Source: a virus
IMG/VR virus record: IMGVR_UViG_3300032245_001134
Location: 1 to 27,898 of that record
DNA: 27,898 nt
Direction: 5' to 3' (one strand)
Of this stretch, positions 2,995 through 24,791 are shown piece by piece (the first letter of the stretch is position 1; every line of letters starts with the position of its first letter). The translations under genes and the position numbers were made by a program. The notes below the pieces were generated by a model that ran no database searches, was not told where the DNA came from, and saw only the letters and a program-made list of their open reading frames with translations.

Positions 2995-4491
2995 ATGAAA
3001 ATAGTCGTTGCTGGTGGAGGAACCGCAGGTTGGATTGCAGCCTACTTAATTGCTAATGCTCACAAGGGTGTGCATCAGATAACCGTTATCGAATCTTCTG
3101 AAATCGGCATCATTGGTGCTGGTGAAGGTTCTAGCGGTCTTTTTTATCAATTAGTTACAGACCGCATTGTTCAAGGCGGAGCAAGCATTGAGGACTTCAT
3201 GGTCCGTACTGACTCCACTATTAAGTACGGCATCAAGCACGAGGGTTGGTCACCAACTCATAAAGACTATTTTGCACCTCTAAATGGTTCTAATACTTCA
3301 GCAGACATCCCCGACTACAACTTTCACCACACCCTGATTAACTACCCAACTGAACACATCTCTTTAGCCTCTACTGTTGGTCTTGCCTATTACCACAACA
3401 AGGCTCCACTTCGTGAGTTTGGGTTTCACTTTGATGGTCACAAGGTTGGAAAATACTTTGAATACCTGTTGTTTAAGGAAGAGAAGGGTGTTCGTAAGGT
3501 CGATGCTGTTATCAACAAGGTCAACCTAAACCAGCAAGGTGAGATTGCAAGCCTTAATCTCAGCAACGGACAAACACTGGAAGCAGACTTCTTTATTGAT
3601 TGCACTGGTTTTGCTCGTGTCTTATCTAAAGAACTAGGCGTTAAGTGGGTTTCCTACAAAAAGAACCTTCCTGCAGATAGAGCAATGCCGTTTATCGTTG
3701 ATTACAAAATGGATGAAACAGACCGCATTGAGCAGTTAACTAAAGCAACTGCTCTGTCCTCTGGTTGGATGTGGAGTATTCCGCTACAAACACGTATGGG
3801 ACACGGCTATGTGTATAGCAGCGAGTTTCTTACTGAAGACCAAGCACAACAAGAAATTGAAAAGAAGTTGGGTCACAGCATCACCCCGATTAAAAACATC
3901 AAGTTTGAAGGTGGACGTGCTGAAAACCTTTGGGTTAAGAACTGCTTGTCTACTGGGCTATCTGGTTCATTCCTTGAGCCACTAGAGGCTACATCTATCC
4001 ATGCAACGATTATTCAGTTGTTGGAGTTTATATTCCAGTTCTTAACCGCAGATAAAGAATCGATGATGAATCCCGTTGTTGCTAAACGCTTTAACGAGAA
4101 GATGAACAACATGTTTGACGACTTTAAAGACTTTATTGTTTTGCACTACCAAGGTGGTAGAGATGACTCTGAGTTCTGGAGATACATCAAGACTGGAGAA
4201 ACCCTAACTCCGTTTGTATCTGAGTTGCTTGATTACTGTAAAACTCATATACCAAACTACCTCTACTACCAAAACTACTTAGGAACTTCCGCACCTTTGT
4301 GGAACTGGGTACTTGCTGGTATTGGAAAACTTAATCCAGAGGTTGCTAAAGCAGAACTTATGCGTCATGGAAAGTTAGAGCAAGCAGCGATGGATTTCCA
4401 ACGCTACTTTGACTATCCTCCGTTTTACAACATCAAGGATTACCCTGAGTTCTTAGTTAACCCAGGAAGTGTTTCAAAATTGCCGTTGTAG
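2995..4491 (+). CDS. Flavin-dependent (tryptophan-type) halogenase
   Basis: 498 residues, about the normal length for the Trp_halogenase family. Seen: FAD-binding GGGTAGW near the N-terminus (7-13), GAGEGS (41-46), a lysine in the STIKYGI context (Lys77) at the place of the catalytic Lys79 of PrnA, the family signature GWMWSIPL (257-264) followed by RMGHGYVYSS, and FLEPLEATSIH (327-337) around the conserved Glu/Ser-Thr region. The W-x-W-x-I-P motif separates halogenases from flavin monooxygenases. Such enzymes use FADH2, O2 and halide to form hypohalous acid and need a separate flavin reductase, which is not in the window. Related genes occur in cyanophages, for example VirX1. The substrate cannot be predicted; free Trp is only the family namesake. 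Start ATG has AAGG upstream. Confidence 0.9.
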   Translation: MKIVVAGGGTAGWIAAYLIANAHKGVHQITVIESSEIGIIGAGEGSSGLFYQLVTDRIVQGGASIEDFMVRTDSTIKYGIKHEGWSPTHKDYFAPLNGSNTSADIPDYNFHHTLINYPTEHISLASTVGLAYYHNKAPLREFGFHFDGHKVGKYFEYLLFKEEKGVRKVDAVINKVNLNQQGEIASLNLSNGQTLEADFFIDCTGFARVLSKELGVKWVSYKKNLPADRAMPFIVDYKMDETDRIEQLTKATALSSGWMWSIPLQTRMGHGYVYSSEFLTEDQAQQEIEKKLGHSITPIKNIKFEGGRAENLWVKNCLSTGLSGSFLEPLEATSIHATIIQLLEFIFQFLTADKESMMNPVVAKRFNEKMNNMFDDFKDFIVLHYQGGRDDSEFWRYIKTGETLTPFVSELLDYCKTHIPNYLYYQNYLGTSAPLWNWVLAGIGKLNPEVAKAELMRHGKLEQAAMDFQRYFDYPPFYNIKDYPEFLVNPGSVSKLPL

Positions 4492-5260: not shown

Positions 5261-5280
5261 AAGTAAGTACTACCCAAAGT

Positions 5281-5314
5281 GGAGGGTCAAGGCTAAACTA
5301 GTCCTTGACCCTCC
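5281..5314. terminator. Perfect 12-bp hairpin, terminator-like
   Basis: GGAGGGTCAAGG (5281-5292) pairs perfectly with CCTTGACCCTCC (5303-5314). The CTA/TAG inside can extend it around a 3-nt loop with one bulge. The 3' side (AACTATTTA) is only mildly T-rich. It may act as a terminator or as an RNA processing or stability element before the peptidase gene. Confidence 0.55.
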
Positions 5315-5332
5315 AACTATTTAGGGATACCC

Positions 5333-5875
5333 ATGACAACAATTGTTGCTATTCAACATGATGATAAATGCATCATCTATTGCGATAACCAAACCACTGG
5401 TGGAGATGGTCGCAAATTCAACCACTCTAAAATGGTTAAGATTTCAAAGCGTGGGGACTTTTTAATAGCGGGTTCTGGTGAAGCAATGCCATGTGATGTT
5501 GCTCAGCACATCTGGTTACCACCAGCCCCAACAGAAAAAGATTTAAAAGACGTATATCACTTTATGATTGCAAAGGTTGTTCCGTCTCTTCGTAAATGTC
5601 TAATTGATAATGGATTTAACTTTGACGCAGAATCCGATGGGGATACTAGGTTTGACTTTATTATTGCTGTTGCAGGGCACCTATTTAGCGTTGCAGACGA
5701 CCTCTCAGTGGGTATGAGAGATGACGGTGTCTACGGAGTTGGGTCTGGCTCTAAATACGCCATAGGAGCGATTATGGCGGGTGCTACGCCATTAGAGGCA
5801 ATTAAGATTGCAGCATCCCAAGATGCCTACACATCAGGACCTTTCATGAAGAAAGAGCAGTACAAATACGAGTAA
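5333..5875 (+). CDS. HslV/proteasome-beta-like Ntn-hydrolase
   Basis: 180 residues, close to HslV length. It begins M-TTIVAI, so removal of Met1 would expose a threonine nucleophile as in HslV and 20S beta subunits. The strand-turn motif with Asp18 (Asp17 in mature numbering) is followed by NQTTGG, and Lys33 (mature 32, against Lys33 in HslV) stands in the HSKMVKI segment. AGSGEA follows, and near the C-terminus GVGSGSKYAIGAIMAG matches the conserved GSG turn plus helix. These are the marks of an N-terminal-nucleophile peptidase that assembles into rings. No ATPase partner (HslU/ClpX/Mpa type) is in the window. It could degrade host proteins, or possibly process virion proteins, as no other head protease is seen. 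Both roles are inference. Confidence 0.75.
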   Translation: MTTIVAIQHDDKCIIYCDNQTTGGDGRKFNHSKMVKISKRGDFLIAGSGEAMPCDVAQHIWLPPAPTEKDLKDVYHFMIAKVVPSLRKCLIDNGFNFDAESDGDTRFDFIIAVAGHLFSVADDLSVGMRDDGVYGVGSGSKYAIGAIMAGATPLEAIKIAASQDAYTSGPFMKKEQYKYE

Positions 5876-5917: not shown

Positions 5918-6292
5918 GTGAAAAACGGAATTAAAGGAATAGGAAATATCCTACTTCGTATTGTTGCAGTCTTCGCTGCTAGTGGTCTTGGTGTAATTGG
6001 TGCTGGTGCTATCGCTGGTATCTCTACAGTCAAAGCGGTCACAGTTGCAGGTCTTACAGCGGTTGCAGCAGTTGTAGAAAAACTTGCTCGTGGATTTATG
6101 AACGACGGCAAACTTGACCTAGACGAAATCAACGCAGCATTTGCAGCAGTTGATGTTAACTCTAAGACAGCAGCAGACCTTAAGGTTGAGGCTAAGCAAA
6201 ACGGTCAGGACATCATCATTTCTGCTGGAACTAAGCCAGACGGACAAATCCCTGAAGAACATCCAGTAGATGAGGATTGGGACAAGAACTAA
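5918..6292 (+). CDS. Holin candidate with two membrane helices
   Basis: GTG start with AAAGGAG seven bases upstream. 124 residues: a short basic N-terminus, two hydrophobic segments (about 11-34 and 38-54, Gly/Ala rich), and then a soluble acidic tail with an EF-hand-like stretch NDGKLDLDE (62-70). Two helices, a charged C-terminus and direct coupling to the endolysin (TAATG) fit a holin. It could instead be a lysis regulator or an unrelated membrane protein. The Asp/Asn positions of the loop suggest possible calcium binding but do not form a full canonical EF-hand. Confidence 0.55.
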   Translation: MKNGIKGIGNILLRIVAVFAASGLGVIGAGAIAGISTVKAVTVAGLTAVAAVVEKLARGFMNDGKLDLDEINAAFAAVDVNSKTAADLKVEAKQNGQDIIISAGTKPDGQIPEEHPVDEDWDKN

Positions 6293-6846
6293 TGGCAGAT
6301 ATGGGAACAGCAGCCAAACTTATTGAGGTTGCAACAGGAGAACTTGGAACCATTGAAGGTCCTAAGGATAATGAAACAAAGTACGGTGCATTTACAAAAG
6401 CAAACTTCCAACCATGGTGTGGTTCGTTTGTTATGTGGTGTGCAAACCAGGCTGGTGTAAAAGTCCCTAATACTGTTTACACACCAGGTGGTGCAGCAGC
6501 GTTTAAGAAGGCTGGTGCATGGATTGACGGAGATATTGCAGACCCAGAACCAGGAGATATTGCTTATTTTGATTTTCCTGCAGACGGTGTAGACAGAATT
6601 TCACACGTTGGAATTGTCATTAAGGACAACGGCGATGGAACTGTTTGGTGCATTGAGGGAAATACAAGCCCAGATAAAAAAGGTTCACAACGCAATGGTG
6701 GACAAGTTTCAAAAAAACTTCGTGGATTTAAGAAGAACAAGGCTGGAGAGATGATTTCCATTGTAGGCTTTGGTCGTCCTAAGTTCAAAGGTGCAGCATC
6801 TGCTGCTCCTGCAGCCCCAGCAGTGTGCCCAACCTGCGGTAAGTAA
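6292..6846 (+). CDS. CHAP-type endolysin
   Basis: 184 residues from the ATG in the TAATG overlap; an in-frame TTG at 6277 would only add five residues. The motif WCGSFVMWC places the catalytic cysteine at 43. SHVGIV gives His105, and IEGN (121-124) supplies the third polar residue. This Cys-His-Glu/Asn order is that of CHAP/NlpC-P60-like peptidoglycan amidases or endopeptidases. There is no separate cell-wall-binding domain; the C-terminus is an Ala/Pro linker ending in CPTCGK, an incomplete zinc knuckle. It would cleave peptidoglycan at lysis after membrane opening by the neighbouring holin candidate. No signal peptide is present, consistent with holin-dependent release. Confidence 0.85.
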   Translation: MADMGTAAKLIEVATGELGTIEGPKDNETKYGAFTKANFQPWCGSFVMWCANQAGVKVPNTVYTPGGAAAFKKAGAWIDGDIADPEPGDIAYFDFPADGVDRISHVGIVIKDNGDGTVWCIEGNTSPDKKGSQRNGGQVSKKLRGFKKNKAGEMISIVGFGRPKFKGAASAAPAAPAVCPTCGK

Positions 6847-8262: not shown

Positions 8263-10674
8263 TTGCTGTCTAAAGCAGTCAAATACCTTCTCGCCACTTT
8301 ATTTATCGGAATTCTATTAGCACTCTATTCACCAACTGAAGCACATGCCGAAGAGGTAACTGTGCAGGTTACTCCTGCCCCAGAATCTTTGCTTTCACAA
8401 TCAGACACGCCTACTGTTGTAACTGTTAGTGCCAAAATAGAACTAGCAACCACAACGTTGCAATCTGCCGTTGATGGAGCCACAGCAACAGTCGCTGCAA
8501 TCCCAAATGCTCAAACTATTGTTGCTAATAGCCCAGAAGCAACTCAAGCCGTAACAAAGGCTGGAGAAGATATCAACACTGCAAATCAAGCAATTAACGC
8601 AGCAACAGCAGCAGTTGCTACAGCAGTTACAGCCGTTCAAGCAGTTGATTCTCAAACAGCGGTAGTGGCTACCGCTACCACCGCAGTGGACTCAGCAACA
8701 GCAGTTGTTGCTACAGCAACTACAAACTTAAGTAACGCTCAGGCTGATTTAAGTACCGCTCAAACTACCCTTACAAACTCCCCCGTAGTTGAGACAACCG
8801 CCCCAGGACTTGTTGTAAAGGTCTACAACGTTCAAGGTCAAAACAATGCTCCAGTATTGCCAGAAGGAGCAACACCAATCCACACCGCAGTTGACACTAA
8901 CGGTATCAATGAAAACTGGGGAAGTGGTAACGTGGCTGGCTCTAATCGCTCAGAAGATGTAATTGTTACCTATGAAGGGCAAGTTACTGCACCAGAAGGT
9001 GTGAACACCATCAGATTTATAGTCTTATCGGATGATGGAGCACGAATCTACATAGACAATCAGTTGGTAGTTAATAACTGGAGGGACCAAGGACCTACTT
9101 GGAGTTTTGCTAGTAACTGGCTTGATTTTACTACAGACCGCACAAAAGACCTTGCAGTTTGGTATTACGAAAACGGTGGTGGAGCAACACTGCACTTGGC
9201 TTGGCAACATAGTGGTATTCACACAGGTGTGGATGCTCAGTATCTATCACATACCACAACTACTCAAGACCCAACATTAGTAGCAGCGGTTACTACCGCA
9301 CAAGCAGTTGTTACAGATAAGACCGAAGTGAAACAAGTAGCAGAGACAGCACTCGCAACTGCTCAGACCACATTAACAACAGAGACTCAAACACTTGTTA
9401 CCCTCCAAGACTCCGCAACAGCAACGATTGCTACAGCAAACACATTAGCAGATACAGCAGTTCAAGCAGTAAACACTGCTACTTCCACAGTCGCTTCTGC
9501 CGTTGCCGTAATTGTTTCAATTCAGCAGTCCCAAGTCGTTCCGCCCACTCCGACTCCCACTCCCGTATCACCAGTAGAGCCACAACCAACCCCAGCACCG
9601 CAGCCAGAGCCAACCCCAACACCAAACCCAACACCAATCCCAGAACCATCACCTACTCCTTCCGAGCCAACACCACAACCAGAACCAACACCAGACCCAG
9701 CACCAACCCCTGAGCCAACTCCTGAAGTAACACCAGACCCTATTCCTGAGCCACCCACAGAAGAGCCATTACCACCCACAGAACCGCTACCACCAGTGGA
9801 AGAACCCGAAACACCACCCGTAGAAGTCGAGGAGCCTCCTGTGGCACCTGAACCACCTGCGGAAGAACCACAAGAACCAGTGACACCAGAGCCAGAGCCA
9901 GAAAATCCGTTAGAAGAATCACCACAACCTCCTGCCGAGGAACCTCCTGTTGAGGAACCACCTGCTCCAGAGCCTACACCAGAACCTGCCCCAGAACCAG
10001 CACCAACTCCTGCTGAAGAGGTAAAGGCTGTTGTAGATGACCTTCTTTCTGATGGAAAATTATCTGCATCTGACGCAGACAAGGTTTTAGAGGCTCTTAG
10101 TGCAGATGGTGAAGTTTCTAAAGAAGAAGTCAATTCTTTGTCTGATGCACTTGCTGCAGATGGAAAGTTAACGACTGCAGAGAAAGCCGTTGTTGCTGAA
10201 GCCTTGATTGCATCTGTTGCACCAGGAGAAACACTTACAAAAGAACAGATTCAAGATGCTGGAATTGAATACAAAGACTTGCCACCAACAACTCCTGTTG
10301 ATGTTAGAACTGACGAAAACGGTAACGCTGTCATAATTAGTGCTGAAGTTGCTACACAAGTCGAGTTATTGCAAAACCCAGGAGAATTACTTTCTACAGC
10401 GTTAAGTGACCCAGGTGCTGCACTACAAGCACTTGGAAGTATCGGTGCTGATATGTCGCCACAAGAACGTGAAGAAGCAGAAAAAATGGTTGTTGCTGCC
10501 GTTATTGCAGGTAATGCAGCAATCAATGCAGTTGGTATTGCTGCATCAGCAGCAGGTGGACCAGCAGGGCCATCATCTGGCGGTAGCCGTTCAGGTGGTA
10601 CTGGTGGGGGCGGAAGTTCTGGTGGCGGTGGAGCCTCTGGAGAAAGTAAAGGCGTTAGGAGACGTAAGCCATGA
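8263..10674 (+). CDS. Secreted PA14-domain protein with Pro-rich stalk
   Basis: 803 residues. The TTG start is chosen for its GGGAG ribosome binding site (8253-8257). Order of parts: signal peptide 1-29 (cleavage after AHA); Ala/Thr/Val-rich helical region about 55-175; PA14 domain about 181-325, with the core LSDDGARIYIDNQLVVNNW and ATLHLAW; second Ala/Thr helical region about 335-420; Pro/Glu stalk about 426-583; three tandem helix-DG-helix repeats about 593-649; Ala-rich hydrophobic stretch 741-764; Gly/Ser run; RRRKP tail. PA14 domains are beta-barrels that often bind glycans. A signal peptide on a phage protein means export by the infected host. It may decorate or modify the cell wall or assist lysis. 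No LPxTG anchor is present. It overlaps the next gene in ATGA. Confidence 0.75.
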   Translation: MLSKAVKYLLATLFIGILLALYSPTEAHAEEVTVQVTPAPESLLSQSDTPTVVTVSAKIELATTTLQSAVDGATATVAAIPNAQTIVANSPEATQAVTKAGEDINTANQAINAATAAVATAVTAVQAVDSQTAVVATATTAVDSATAVVATATTNLSNAQADLSTAQTTLTNSPVVETTAPGLVVKVYNVQGQNNAPVLPEGATPIHTAVDTNGINENWGSGNVAGSNRSEDVIVTYEGQVTAPEGVNTIRFIVLSDDGARIYIDNQLVVNNWRDQGPTWSFASNWLDFTTDRTKDLAVWYYENGGGATLHLAWQHSGIHTGVDAQYLSHTTTTQDPTLVAAVTTAQAVVTDKTEVKQVAETALATAQTTLTTETQTLVTLQDSATATIATANTLADTAVQAVNTATSTVASAVAVIVSIQQSQVVPPTPTPTPVSPVEPQPTPAPQPEPTPTPNPTPIPEPSPTPSEPTPQPEPTPDPAPTPEPTPEVTPDPIPEPPTEEPLPPTEPLPPVEEPETPPVEVEEPPVAPEPPAEEPQEPVTPEPEPENPLEESPQPPAEEPPVEEPPAPEPTPEPAPEPAPTPAEEVKAVVDDLLSDGKLSASDADKVLEALSADGEVSKEEVNSLSDALAADGKLTTAEKAVVAEALIASVAPGETLTKEQIQDAGIEYKDLPPTTPVDVRTDENGNAVIISAEVATQVELLQNPGELLSTALSDPGAALQALGSIGADMSPQEREEAEKMVVAAVIAGNAAINAVGIAASAAGGPAGPSSGGSRSGGTGGGGSSGGGGASGESKGVRRRKP

Positions 10675-21792: not shown

Positions 21793-22845
21793 GTGACGAC
21801 AGTAGCCAACCTAACTGACCTAGTTCGGTCAGAACTTGGCGATAGTTCTAAGTCCTTCGTCATGCAATTTGTGGCTGATGGAACAACAAATAGATTTACT
21901 CTTCATTACGCTCCTGTAAATGCGGATACTCTTTTCGTTAGTTTTAACGGAGTAGATGTTTCTGATTCATGTTCTATAGAAGAAGCAACAGGCGTTTTAG
22001 TTAGCGACACCGTGCCTATTGATGGTGTTCAAATCCTTGTGGCTGGAGATTATTTCCGCTACTTCACTAACCCAGAACTTGCTCATTTTATTGATGCTGC
22101 TTTTTTACAGCACTCTAACAACCGTGTAGATTCACTAGGACGTGTACAAACACTTGCCAATCTACCAGCAGTTGAGGTTTATCCAGTTGCAGTGTTAGCG
22201 ACAACACACGCTCTTTACACACTTGCTACTGATGCTTCTTTTGATATTAATATTTCGGCTCCTGATGGAGTCATGATTCCTCGTGCAGAACGCTATCGCC
22301 AATTGATGGACATGCTTAATGCACGTAAAGAACAATACCGTGAACTCTGTGTACTACTAGGTATTGGTATGTTTGGTATTGAGGTCTTTACTCTTCGCCG
22401 TATTTCTAAGACAACAAACAATTACATACCAGCATATCGACCACAGGAGGTTGACGATTACTCATATCCAGAACGAATTGAACTTCAAAGACCAACTTAC
22501 GGAGACAAACCCTCAGAGCACCCTTATGACTCTGTGGAACTTACCGCTTATCAGGATGTGGCTTTCACCTACTCCTTACCGTATACGGGTGACCTCACAA
22601 CTAAAGGCGTTGTTGCGAACATCAGATGGAAAGCGGGAGTAGACCAAAGTCATCTTCCATTTACAGTTTCGGTCACATCAACGTCATCTACCAGTCATAC
22701 TATTACTTTGAGTTTGACACAGGACCAGACAAGAAGACTTGCACAGCGTATGTATTGGGATGTTCAGTTTGTTTATGATTCAGATGGTCATAAAGAAACA
22801 TACAAGGCTGGCAAATTATTTACAGTGCGTGAGGTAACTACATAA
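21793..22845 (+). CDS. Head-tail adaptor (neck) candidate
   Basis: 350 residues from the GTG at 21793, which has GGAGG four bases upstream; the longer open frame back to 21727 overlaps the hairpin region and lacks a ribosome binding site. N-terminus [16 protein letters not shown], then [18 protein letters not shown], a short beta domain and [19 protein letters not shown], a layout seen in actinophage head-to-tail connector proteins. The C-terminal third is beta-rich ([14 protein letters not shown] and on, Thr/Ser-rich) and may be an added Ig-like domain. The role is inferred from order and pattern. Stop overlaps the next gene's ATG in TAATG. Confidence 0.5.
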
Positions 22846-24791
22846 TGGCTATTAATCCAAACAGCCCTAAGTATCCCGAAATTGACCCCTCACTTCTTCC
22901 TGGAGTTTCAGGACAACGAGGTCCAACAGGATATACAGGACCAACAGGTCCAACTGGTTACACAGGTCCAGCAGGTAGTGCATCTGCTACTGGTGCAACA
23001 GGACCTACAGGAGCCACTGGACCAACAGGTGCAACAGGTGCAACAGGTGCAACAGGTGCTCGTGGTTTACAAGGCGGTACTGGCCCAACTGGTCCGTCTG
23101 GTGTTGATGGTATTGGTTCAACAGGACCAACAGGTTCGCAAGGTCCAACAGGTCCAACAGGTTGGACAGGTCCCGCAGTTACAGGTCCAACAGGACCTAC
23201 AGGTGCTGCAGGATTTCTTGGAGGTACTGGACCTACAGGTGCAACTGGTCCAACAGGACAAGTCGGTGCTCAAGGTCAAGTAGGACCAACAGGACCAACT
23301 GGTTATACAGGTCCTCAAGGAAACATTGGTCCTACTGGTTACACAGGTTACACAGGCCCTCAAGGTCCAACTGGACCAACAGGTTACACAGGTCCTACAG
23401 GCTACACAGGACCTGCAAGCACAATTACAGGTCCAACTGGACCAACAGGTGCAACTGGTCCTGCAAGTACAGTTACAGGTCCAACAGGTTACACAGGCCC
23501 TACTGGTGCAACAGGTCCTGCGGGTGCAGCAACAACTATTAAGGGTCAGTACGTAGATTTAGCAACGCTTCAAACAGCAAGACCAACAGGAGCAGTAGGC
23601 GATTCTTACCTTCTTGGAAATGGTGACCTTGCTGTTTGGAATGGAACTGCTTGGCAAAATGTTGGAAACATTAAAGGCCCTACAGGTGCACAAGGTCTTC
23701 CAGGTGCAACTGGAGCAACTGGTGCTGCAAGCACAGTTACAGGACCTACGGGTTCACAAGGTCCAACAGGACCTACTGGTCCTACAGGACCAGCATCAAA
23801 TATAACTGGACCAACAGGTTACACAGGTTACACAGGTCCAACTGGAGCAACTGGTCCAGCATCTACAGTAACTGGTCCTACAGGCCCAACAGGTGCTACA
23901 GGCCCTCAAGGTACTTCCATCAGTGTTAAAGGTGCAGTTGCAACTGTAGGAAACCTACCTTCATCAGGAAACGTTGCTGGTGATGCTTACGTTGTACAAG
24001 CCAACACAAACCTTTATGTATGGAACGGCACTTCTTGGGTTAATGCTGGTCCTTTTGTTGGTCCTACTGGTCCTACAGGTATCACTGGACCTACAGGAGC
24101 AACGGGTCCTACTGGTGCACAAGGACCACGTAACGGAACTACTTTTGTTGTTACCAATAAAACAGGAAATGCACAGTACTTAGTTGCTGGAATTGCTGGA
24201 GATACCCCAACTCTTACTCTTGTACGTGGTGAAACTTATTACTTTGATGTAAGCGGTCTTGTTTCTAATGACCCATTGTGTTTGCGTTTAACAAACGGTA
24301 ATACAGCATCAGTACCAGGAACAACAAACAACGACCCAGTTTCTGGAAAGTTTTCAGGTTCTTCAAACACAATCATTACTTATGTAGTTCCACTAGATGC
24401 ACCAGCAAACATTGTTTATCAAAGTGCTTCTGATGCAACACAAATTGGTTTGCTTGGAATTTATGATAAAAAGGGTGAGACAGGCCCAACAGGTCCAACA
24501 GGTCCAACAGGTGCAACAGGACCAGCGTCAACTGTTACAGGACCAACTGGTTCAACAGGACCCACAGGTTATACAGGACCTGTTGGTAGATTTACAGCAA
24601 CAGGACCAACTGCACCAAGTACTTCAACTGCACTTGCAGGAGACGGTTGGTTTAACACACAAACTGCAAAAACCTATGTATTCTTTCAGGGTGCGTGGGT
24701 AGAAGTTGCGTCAGGCAATGTAGGTCCAACAGGTCCACAAGGAACAGTCGGAACTTTAGCGATATCTACCTCATGGTGGCTGGGTGCTTAG
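22845..24791 (+). CDS. Collagen-like tail fibre protein
   Basis: 648 residues, starting in the TAATG overlap. Collagen-type G-x-T/G-P-T triplets fill about 25-227, 276-357, 405-428 and 545-581, rich in [10 protein letters not shown]. Between them are two copies of a short module (about 231-275 and 359-403) ending in VWNGTAW or VWNGTSW, and a third related one near 581-625 ([10 protein letters not shown]). A beta-sandwich-like domain occupies about 430-543 ([16 protein letters not shown]). Triple-helical trimerisation of a virion fibre is expected. The domain inserts may be folding nuclei or receptor-binding parts. Thr in the third position suggests glycosylation or threonine-stabilised helices in place of hydroxyproline. 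Confidence 0.8.
22917..23526 (+). repeat. Collagen triplet coding repeats
   Basis: About 200 codons of imperfect 9-18 bp units such as GGTCCAACAGGT and GGTTACACAGGT encode Gly-X-Thr and Gly-Pro-Thr triplets. Shorter blocks recur to 24590. Such repeats can expand or contract by slippage or recombination. The opposite and shifted frames are also open here only because of the repeat composition. Confidence 0.75.

Follow-up and report, generated by a model that had tools for sequence, protein, structure and literature searches.

A conserved proteasome/HslV-like Ntn peptidase gene in a phage of probable actinobacterial host

The peptidase locus

The window, as the whole analysed stretch of 27,898 bases from a virus record is called here, carries a gene for a small proteasome/HslV-like Ntn peptidase (P0001, N-terminus MTTIVAIQ) in an open reading frame of the + strand that lies exactly where an earlier note on this DNA had placed it, with an ATG start and a length of 180 residues (Table 1). 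Relatives of P0001 are encoded on 115 viral-contig stretches, and the description of the gene as phage-encoded holds. Comparison of P0001 with five relatives gave dN/dS values of 0.03–0.09 (NG86), of which only the order of magnitude counts, the larger dS values being near saturation. This indicates strong purifying selection that has kept the gene functional, and together with the number of relatives it argues that P0001 is not a chance reading frame.

The gap preceding the gene contains a perfect hairpin, possibly a terminator or a regulatory element, that is kept in five relatives; five of its pairs show changes in both arms, and TAAACT in the loop is invariant. In relatives of the L011 type another hairpin occupies this position. 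Elsewhere in the window lie a tryptophan halogenase gene (2995–4491, Pfam E 5e-93), also seen in L003 and L005 but missing from the corresponding position of L001 and L002, and genes for two probably structural proteins, one with a PA14 domain and a long Pro/Glu-rich stretch (8263–10674) and one with collagen-like repeats (22845–24791).

Table 1. Features of the peptidase locus and of two relatives. Coordinates refer to the window unless a relative is named; alignments A1 and A2 are defined in the text.
Feature	Position	Strand	Remarks
Perfect hairpin of 13 bp, gap preceding the peptidase gene	5280..5315	+	conserved and covarying
Proteasome/HslV-like Ntn peptidase P0001, 180 aa	5333..5875	+	ATG start; PHROG 1040; 22-row alignment; model; dN/dS
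Thr2 codon, predicted nucleophile after Met1 removal	5336..5338	+	invariant in A1 and A2; upstream stops in homologues define the start
Asp18 codon (proteasome Asp17)	5384..5386	+	invariant in A1 and A2
Lys36 codon (proteasome Lys33 equivalent)	5438..5440	+	invariant in A1; at least 90% in A2
Acidic loop, residues 93-106 (NGFNFDAESDGDTR), predicted pore loop	5609..5650	+	net -3; net -1 to -4 in 22/22 A1 rows
Ser138 codon, GSG turn (proteasome Ser129 equivalent)	5744..5746	+	at least 90% conserved in A1
Small protein between peptidase and endolysin	5918..6292	+	PHROG 26427, labelled 'nuclease'; holin-like by eye only
CHAP endolysin, conserved neighbour	6277..6846	+	
AAA_5 (MoxR/CobS-like) ATPase gene	L001 1870-3273; L002 1119-2537	-	absent from the window; both close relatives have long upstream flanks

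Family assignment and active site

The PHROG 1040 profile ('peptidase HslV family') matches residues 1–174 of P0001 with an E value of 2.9e-26, placing the protein in that family. Narrower models score it weakly: the NCBIfam HslV equivalogs gave E values of about 6e-5 (22.9 and 22.7 bits, below their cut-offs of 137 and 157.75), and the Pfam Proteasome model, used as a test for 20S beta, an E value of 0.017 (15.2 bits, below its cut-off of 22.4). A sequence search against solved structures returned as best match the betaproteobacterial proteasome homologue BPH, at an E value of only 8e-4. P0001 belongs on the HslV/BPH side of the family, in group I sensu Fuchs et al. 2021 (PMC8665760). The PHROG match, the predicted Ntn fold and the intact catalytic residues together bear out the identity of an HslV/proteasome-beta-like Ntn-hydrolase that had been assigned from the sequence, and leave us highly confident that P0001 is a functional proteasome-like Ntn peptidase.

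Conservation was examined in an alignment of 22 viral rows of homologues (A1) and in one of 20 diverse rows (A2), among them E. coli HslV, proteins of bacterial plasmids and those of further phages. Met1, Thr2, Thr3, Ile4, Asp18, Lys36, Gly47 and Gly49 are invariant in every row of A1, and Thr2 and Asp18 remain so across A2, where Lys36 is at least 90% conserved. The active-site set of the superfamily (Thr1/Ser1, Asp17, Lys33, Gly47) is thus represented in P0001 by T2, D18, K36 and G49, and Ser138, in the middle of the GSG turn (residues 137–139), is nearly invariant in A1. The aspartate at mature position 17 and the GSG turn, both singled out in the earlier note, are therefore present and conserved, as is the threonine on whose conservation that reading depended. 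Its 'Lys near 33' was right in that a catalytic lysine exists but imprecise as to which, since the literal K33 varies among the A1 rows and the invariant residue is K36 (mature 35). The 13 residues separating K36 from G49 are also the distance between Lys37 and Gly50 of T. denitrificans BPH, whose Lys37 corresponds to Lys33 of the proteasome (PMC5777263).

In P0001 the threonine directly follows Met1, and several homologues have a stop codon that abuts the ATG or precedes it by a few codons, so that a propeptide is not possible. The position equivalent to proteasome Asp166 appears, from our reading of A1, not to be conserved. Outside the active site A1 also contains strictly kept residues specific to the family, such as PCDxAQHxW and YHF.

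Predicted fold and pore loop

An AlphaFold2 model built from A1 (mean pLDDT 92.6, pTM 0.88) shows the expected alpha-beta-beta-alpha Ntn sandwich, with four main helices at residues 51–60, 74–92, 140–148 and 153–163. A Foldseek search of the PDB yielded 929 matches with E values of at most 0.001, the top ones being chains of the proteasome family; BPH (5ovs/5ovt) came first (E 6e-11), followed by HslV and 20S beta. VIA-align likewise gave a Z score of 17.7 against BPH 5ovt (166 residues, rmsd 2.8 Å) and of 16–17 against 20S and HslV chains, and viral structure models labelled HslV were also among the structural matches. The loop joining the second helix to the next strand, predicted to be the pore loop, is acidic in all 22 rows; the corresponding loop is acidic in BPH, whereas the HslV counterpart is a short linker that carries basic residues (PMC5777263).

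Host and distribution

The window's terminase, portal and capsid proteins (54%, 55% and 61% identity, respectively) have their closest counterparts in the Streptomyces phages BRock, LuckySocke, Alone3, GiJojo and pSt2308. The actinobacterial regulator WhiB occurs in eight of 14 related records, including a 99.8-kb contig with a 96%-identical peptidase, and among 14 control genomes it was seen in Corynebacterium only. This gene content makes an actinobacterial host very likely, in agreement with what the earlier note had supposed.

Homologues of P0001 were found by tblastn in 102 phage records that span phages of Escherichia, Klebsiella and Vibrio to those of Microbacterium and Arthrobacter and the lake phage DSL-LC01, many of them already annotated as protease or HslV family. 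LuckySocke gene 42, annotated 'peptidase', was read as a candidate relative and is not one. In a tree that includes no BPH sequence, and whose deep order was left aside because several long branches meet, the window clade stands apart from a bacterial AAH-like clade (100/99 support) that includes two proteobacterial phages. A scan of genome contigs with A1 matched its patterns and found no relative, and one with a Streptomyces plasmid protein found six actinobacterial loci. Searching 396 actinobacterial genomes with the A1 profile gave two matches, one a 43-residue fragment and the other the AAH-like gene belonging to the genome chosen as centre, neither of them clearly of the window type, so that in this sample the clade looks phage-bound. 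Members of the close clade of P0001 were met in phage contigs only, and their hosts are probably Actinobacteria. A previous survey reported AAH in phages and found no actinobacterial phage carrying it (PMC8665760), and our literature search found no paper testing the function of any phage-borne proteasome homologue, nor a studied actinophage one. Among the bacterial loci, an AAH-like gene on a Sinorhizobium plasmid (L097, 4001–4546) lies among nitrogen-fixation genes (nifQ, Fe-S assembly, nifS) and has relatives on other rhizobial plasmids.

The ATPase question and a proposed mechanism

No AAA_2 (ClpX/HslU-type) ATPase was found in the window or in 17 other records, most of which may be fragments, although relatives of 100 kb and 95 kb were included. 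Broader AAA (PF00004) searches of relatives gave weak matches, and the two that were followed up as candidates for HslU or Mpa proved to be an AAA_5 protein instead, encoded in L001 and L002 about 5 kb from the peptidase on the opposite strand. The earlier note is supported in that no HslU-type ATPase was seen with the phage copy in the records searched, but not in that this is unusual: besides the 102 phage records, Fuchs et al. 2021, who gave the phage-borne PPH, AAH and CPH their names, saw none of the new homologues co-occur with an AAA+ partner (PMC8665760), and in 2020 HslV was noted without HslU in a Salmonella jumbo phage (PMC7823757), which makes the ATPase-less state the rule for phage copies. 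P0001 may also be served by an ATPase encoded in another part of its genome, or by one of the host.

These observations can be combined in a mechanism, to which we give about an even chance, whereby P0001 would be a threonine peptidase that compartmentalises itself, needs no ATPase and works within the infected cell. Host methionine aminopeptidase would remove Met1, as its known preferences and the analogy with HslV suggest, and free Thr2 to act as the nucleophile together with Asp18, Lys36, Gly49 and Ser138. The protein would then self-assemble into a BPH-like double ring with its active sites facing inward and an acidic pore loop, and may work without a dedicated AAA+ unfoldase, presumably degrading unfolded or loosely structured proteins during infection. 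In favour of this mechanism are the PHROG 1040 match, the top match to BPH, the invariant site, the absence of a propeptide, the low dN/dS, the acidic loop and the lack of an AAA_2 gene; counted against it are the apparently unconserved Asp166 position, the AAA_5 gene of L001 and L002, and the behaviour of BPH itself, which binds epoxomicin yet gave no activity on model substrates (PMC5777263), so that an intact site is no proof of bulk proteolysis by P0001.

Genomic contexts and alternative roles

The surroundings of the gene differ between lineages, in counts that are not those of independent events, several loci being near-copies: in the window's group a CHAP endolysin gene lies two or three genes downstream of the peptidase at six of seven loci (L004, the remaining one, breaks off too soon to show it), loci of the L011 type have the endolysin immediately before the peptidase in all 14 cases with that side present, and in a podovirus-like group the portal gene ends 14–18 nt upstream of the peptidase at 7/7 loci complete on that side. 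In the L050 type the neighbours lie on the opposite strand, and in the L007 type the peptidase is preceded by a histone-deacetylase-family gene, found directly upstream of the homologue in L009 (7077–7982, Pfam E 1e-52) and likewise in L007, L008 and L010. Such varied contexts imply no single fixed partner.

The portal-linked lineage makes virion processing the main rival, namely that during assembly the enzyme cleaves structural proteins of the phage such as portal, scaffold or internal virion proteins. A distant homologue in Sinorhizobium phage phiM5 likewise sits between terminase and portal, and no conventional prohead protease was seen between the window's portal and capsid genes. However, the window's own peptidase lies beside the endolysin, 12 kb from the portal, and searches found no homologue in BRock and LuckySocke, which share the portal-scaffold-capsid block at 54–61% identity, placing the peptidase outside the core head module. 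Moreover, in Microbacterium phage WaterT the homologue exists alongside a distinct capsid maturation protease, and in phiM5 portal, scaffold and capsid are marked in the virion proteome but the peptidase is not. We consider virion processing rather improbable as the function of P0001, and still more so a role as head or virion maturation protease in the portal-linked lineage, perhaps extending clade-wide. We know of no proteasome-fold enzyme yet shown to process virions, and such a role, if true, would be the first.

A slightly poorer prospect is that P0001 docks on a host ATPase of the Mpa/ARC, ClpX or ClpC type and diverts unfolded host substrates to the phage peptidase. This would suit an actinobacterial host, since all three actinobacterial genomes tested have 20S proteasome genes, as well as the failure to find an AAA_2 partner in the 18 phage records; but no docking feature was identified in P0001, its acidic pore loop resembles that of BPH, which has no known unfoldase, and phages of many hosts outside the Actinobacteria have homologues too. 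It is unlikely, too, that P0001, instead of being a bulk protease, performs highly specific processing or ligation. Connectase, a distant family member, is a monomeric protein ligase (PMC8665760), and the strictness of the PCDxAQHxW and YHF residues beyond the active site is unusual, but P0001 is compact, has both helix pairs and lacks the connectase-type insertion between strands 3 and 4 (PMC8665760). Finally, a role as poison subunit, in which P0001 would enter the 20S or HslV particles of the host and inactivate them, is conceivable from the common fold but highly improbable, as an identity of about 20% to E. coli HslV makes mixed rings unlikely and a mere poison would not need catalytic residues under strong purifying selection.

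Comparison with known systems

As a kind P0001 is ordinary, phage-borne proteasome relatives having been catalogued since 2021 (PMC8665760) and being widespread. What is new is a precise clade, common in metagenomic phage contigs and strongly selected, its link to actinobacterial hosts, and its two conserved contexts, lysis and portal. It is useful as a well-defined actinophage clade, whose small, propeptide-free proteins are suited to expression and whose contrasting contexts make hypotheses of function testable.

The closest named system is BPH, the top structural match, with which P0001 shares the Thr-Asp-Lys-Gly-Ser set, the Lys-to-Gly spacing, the acidic loop and the lack of a known ATPase. 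Identity over the structural alignment is about 20–27%, however, and BPH is a bacterial protein with a tetradecameric double ring, a form that P0001 would share if it assembles as proposed. HslV has the same fold, the MTTIV start and, in E. coli, the same Met-Thr N-terminus without propeptide, but it differs in sequence (about 20% identity, with P0001 scoring far under the curated cut-offs), in its basic loop, and in having the partner HslU, which was not seen with P0001 in the 18 records searched. A Streptomyces plasmid protein, assigned like the other plasmid proteins to AAH by us from organism and length, is about 29% identical to P0001 and shares its PP and FM motifs, although in AAH-like bacterial proteins the GSG turn reads GCG. 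PPH, the proteasome homologue of phages and their hosts, is also phage-borne and without an ATPase, but at about 140 residues and without helix H2 (PMC8665760) it is distinct from P0001, whose 180 residues and four main helices in the model rule out that assignment. The 'protease' genes of Microbacterium phages WaterT and Pumpernickel, Arthrobacter phage Hum25 and Actinomycetia phage DSL-LC01 come from phages of the same host phylum and encode proteins 27–31% identical to P0001 over the whole length, in neighbourhoods that differ from that of the window.
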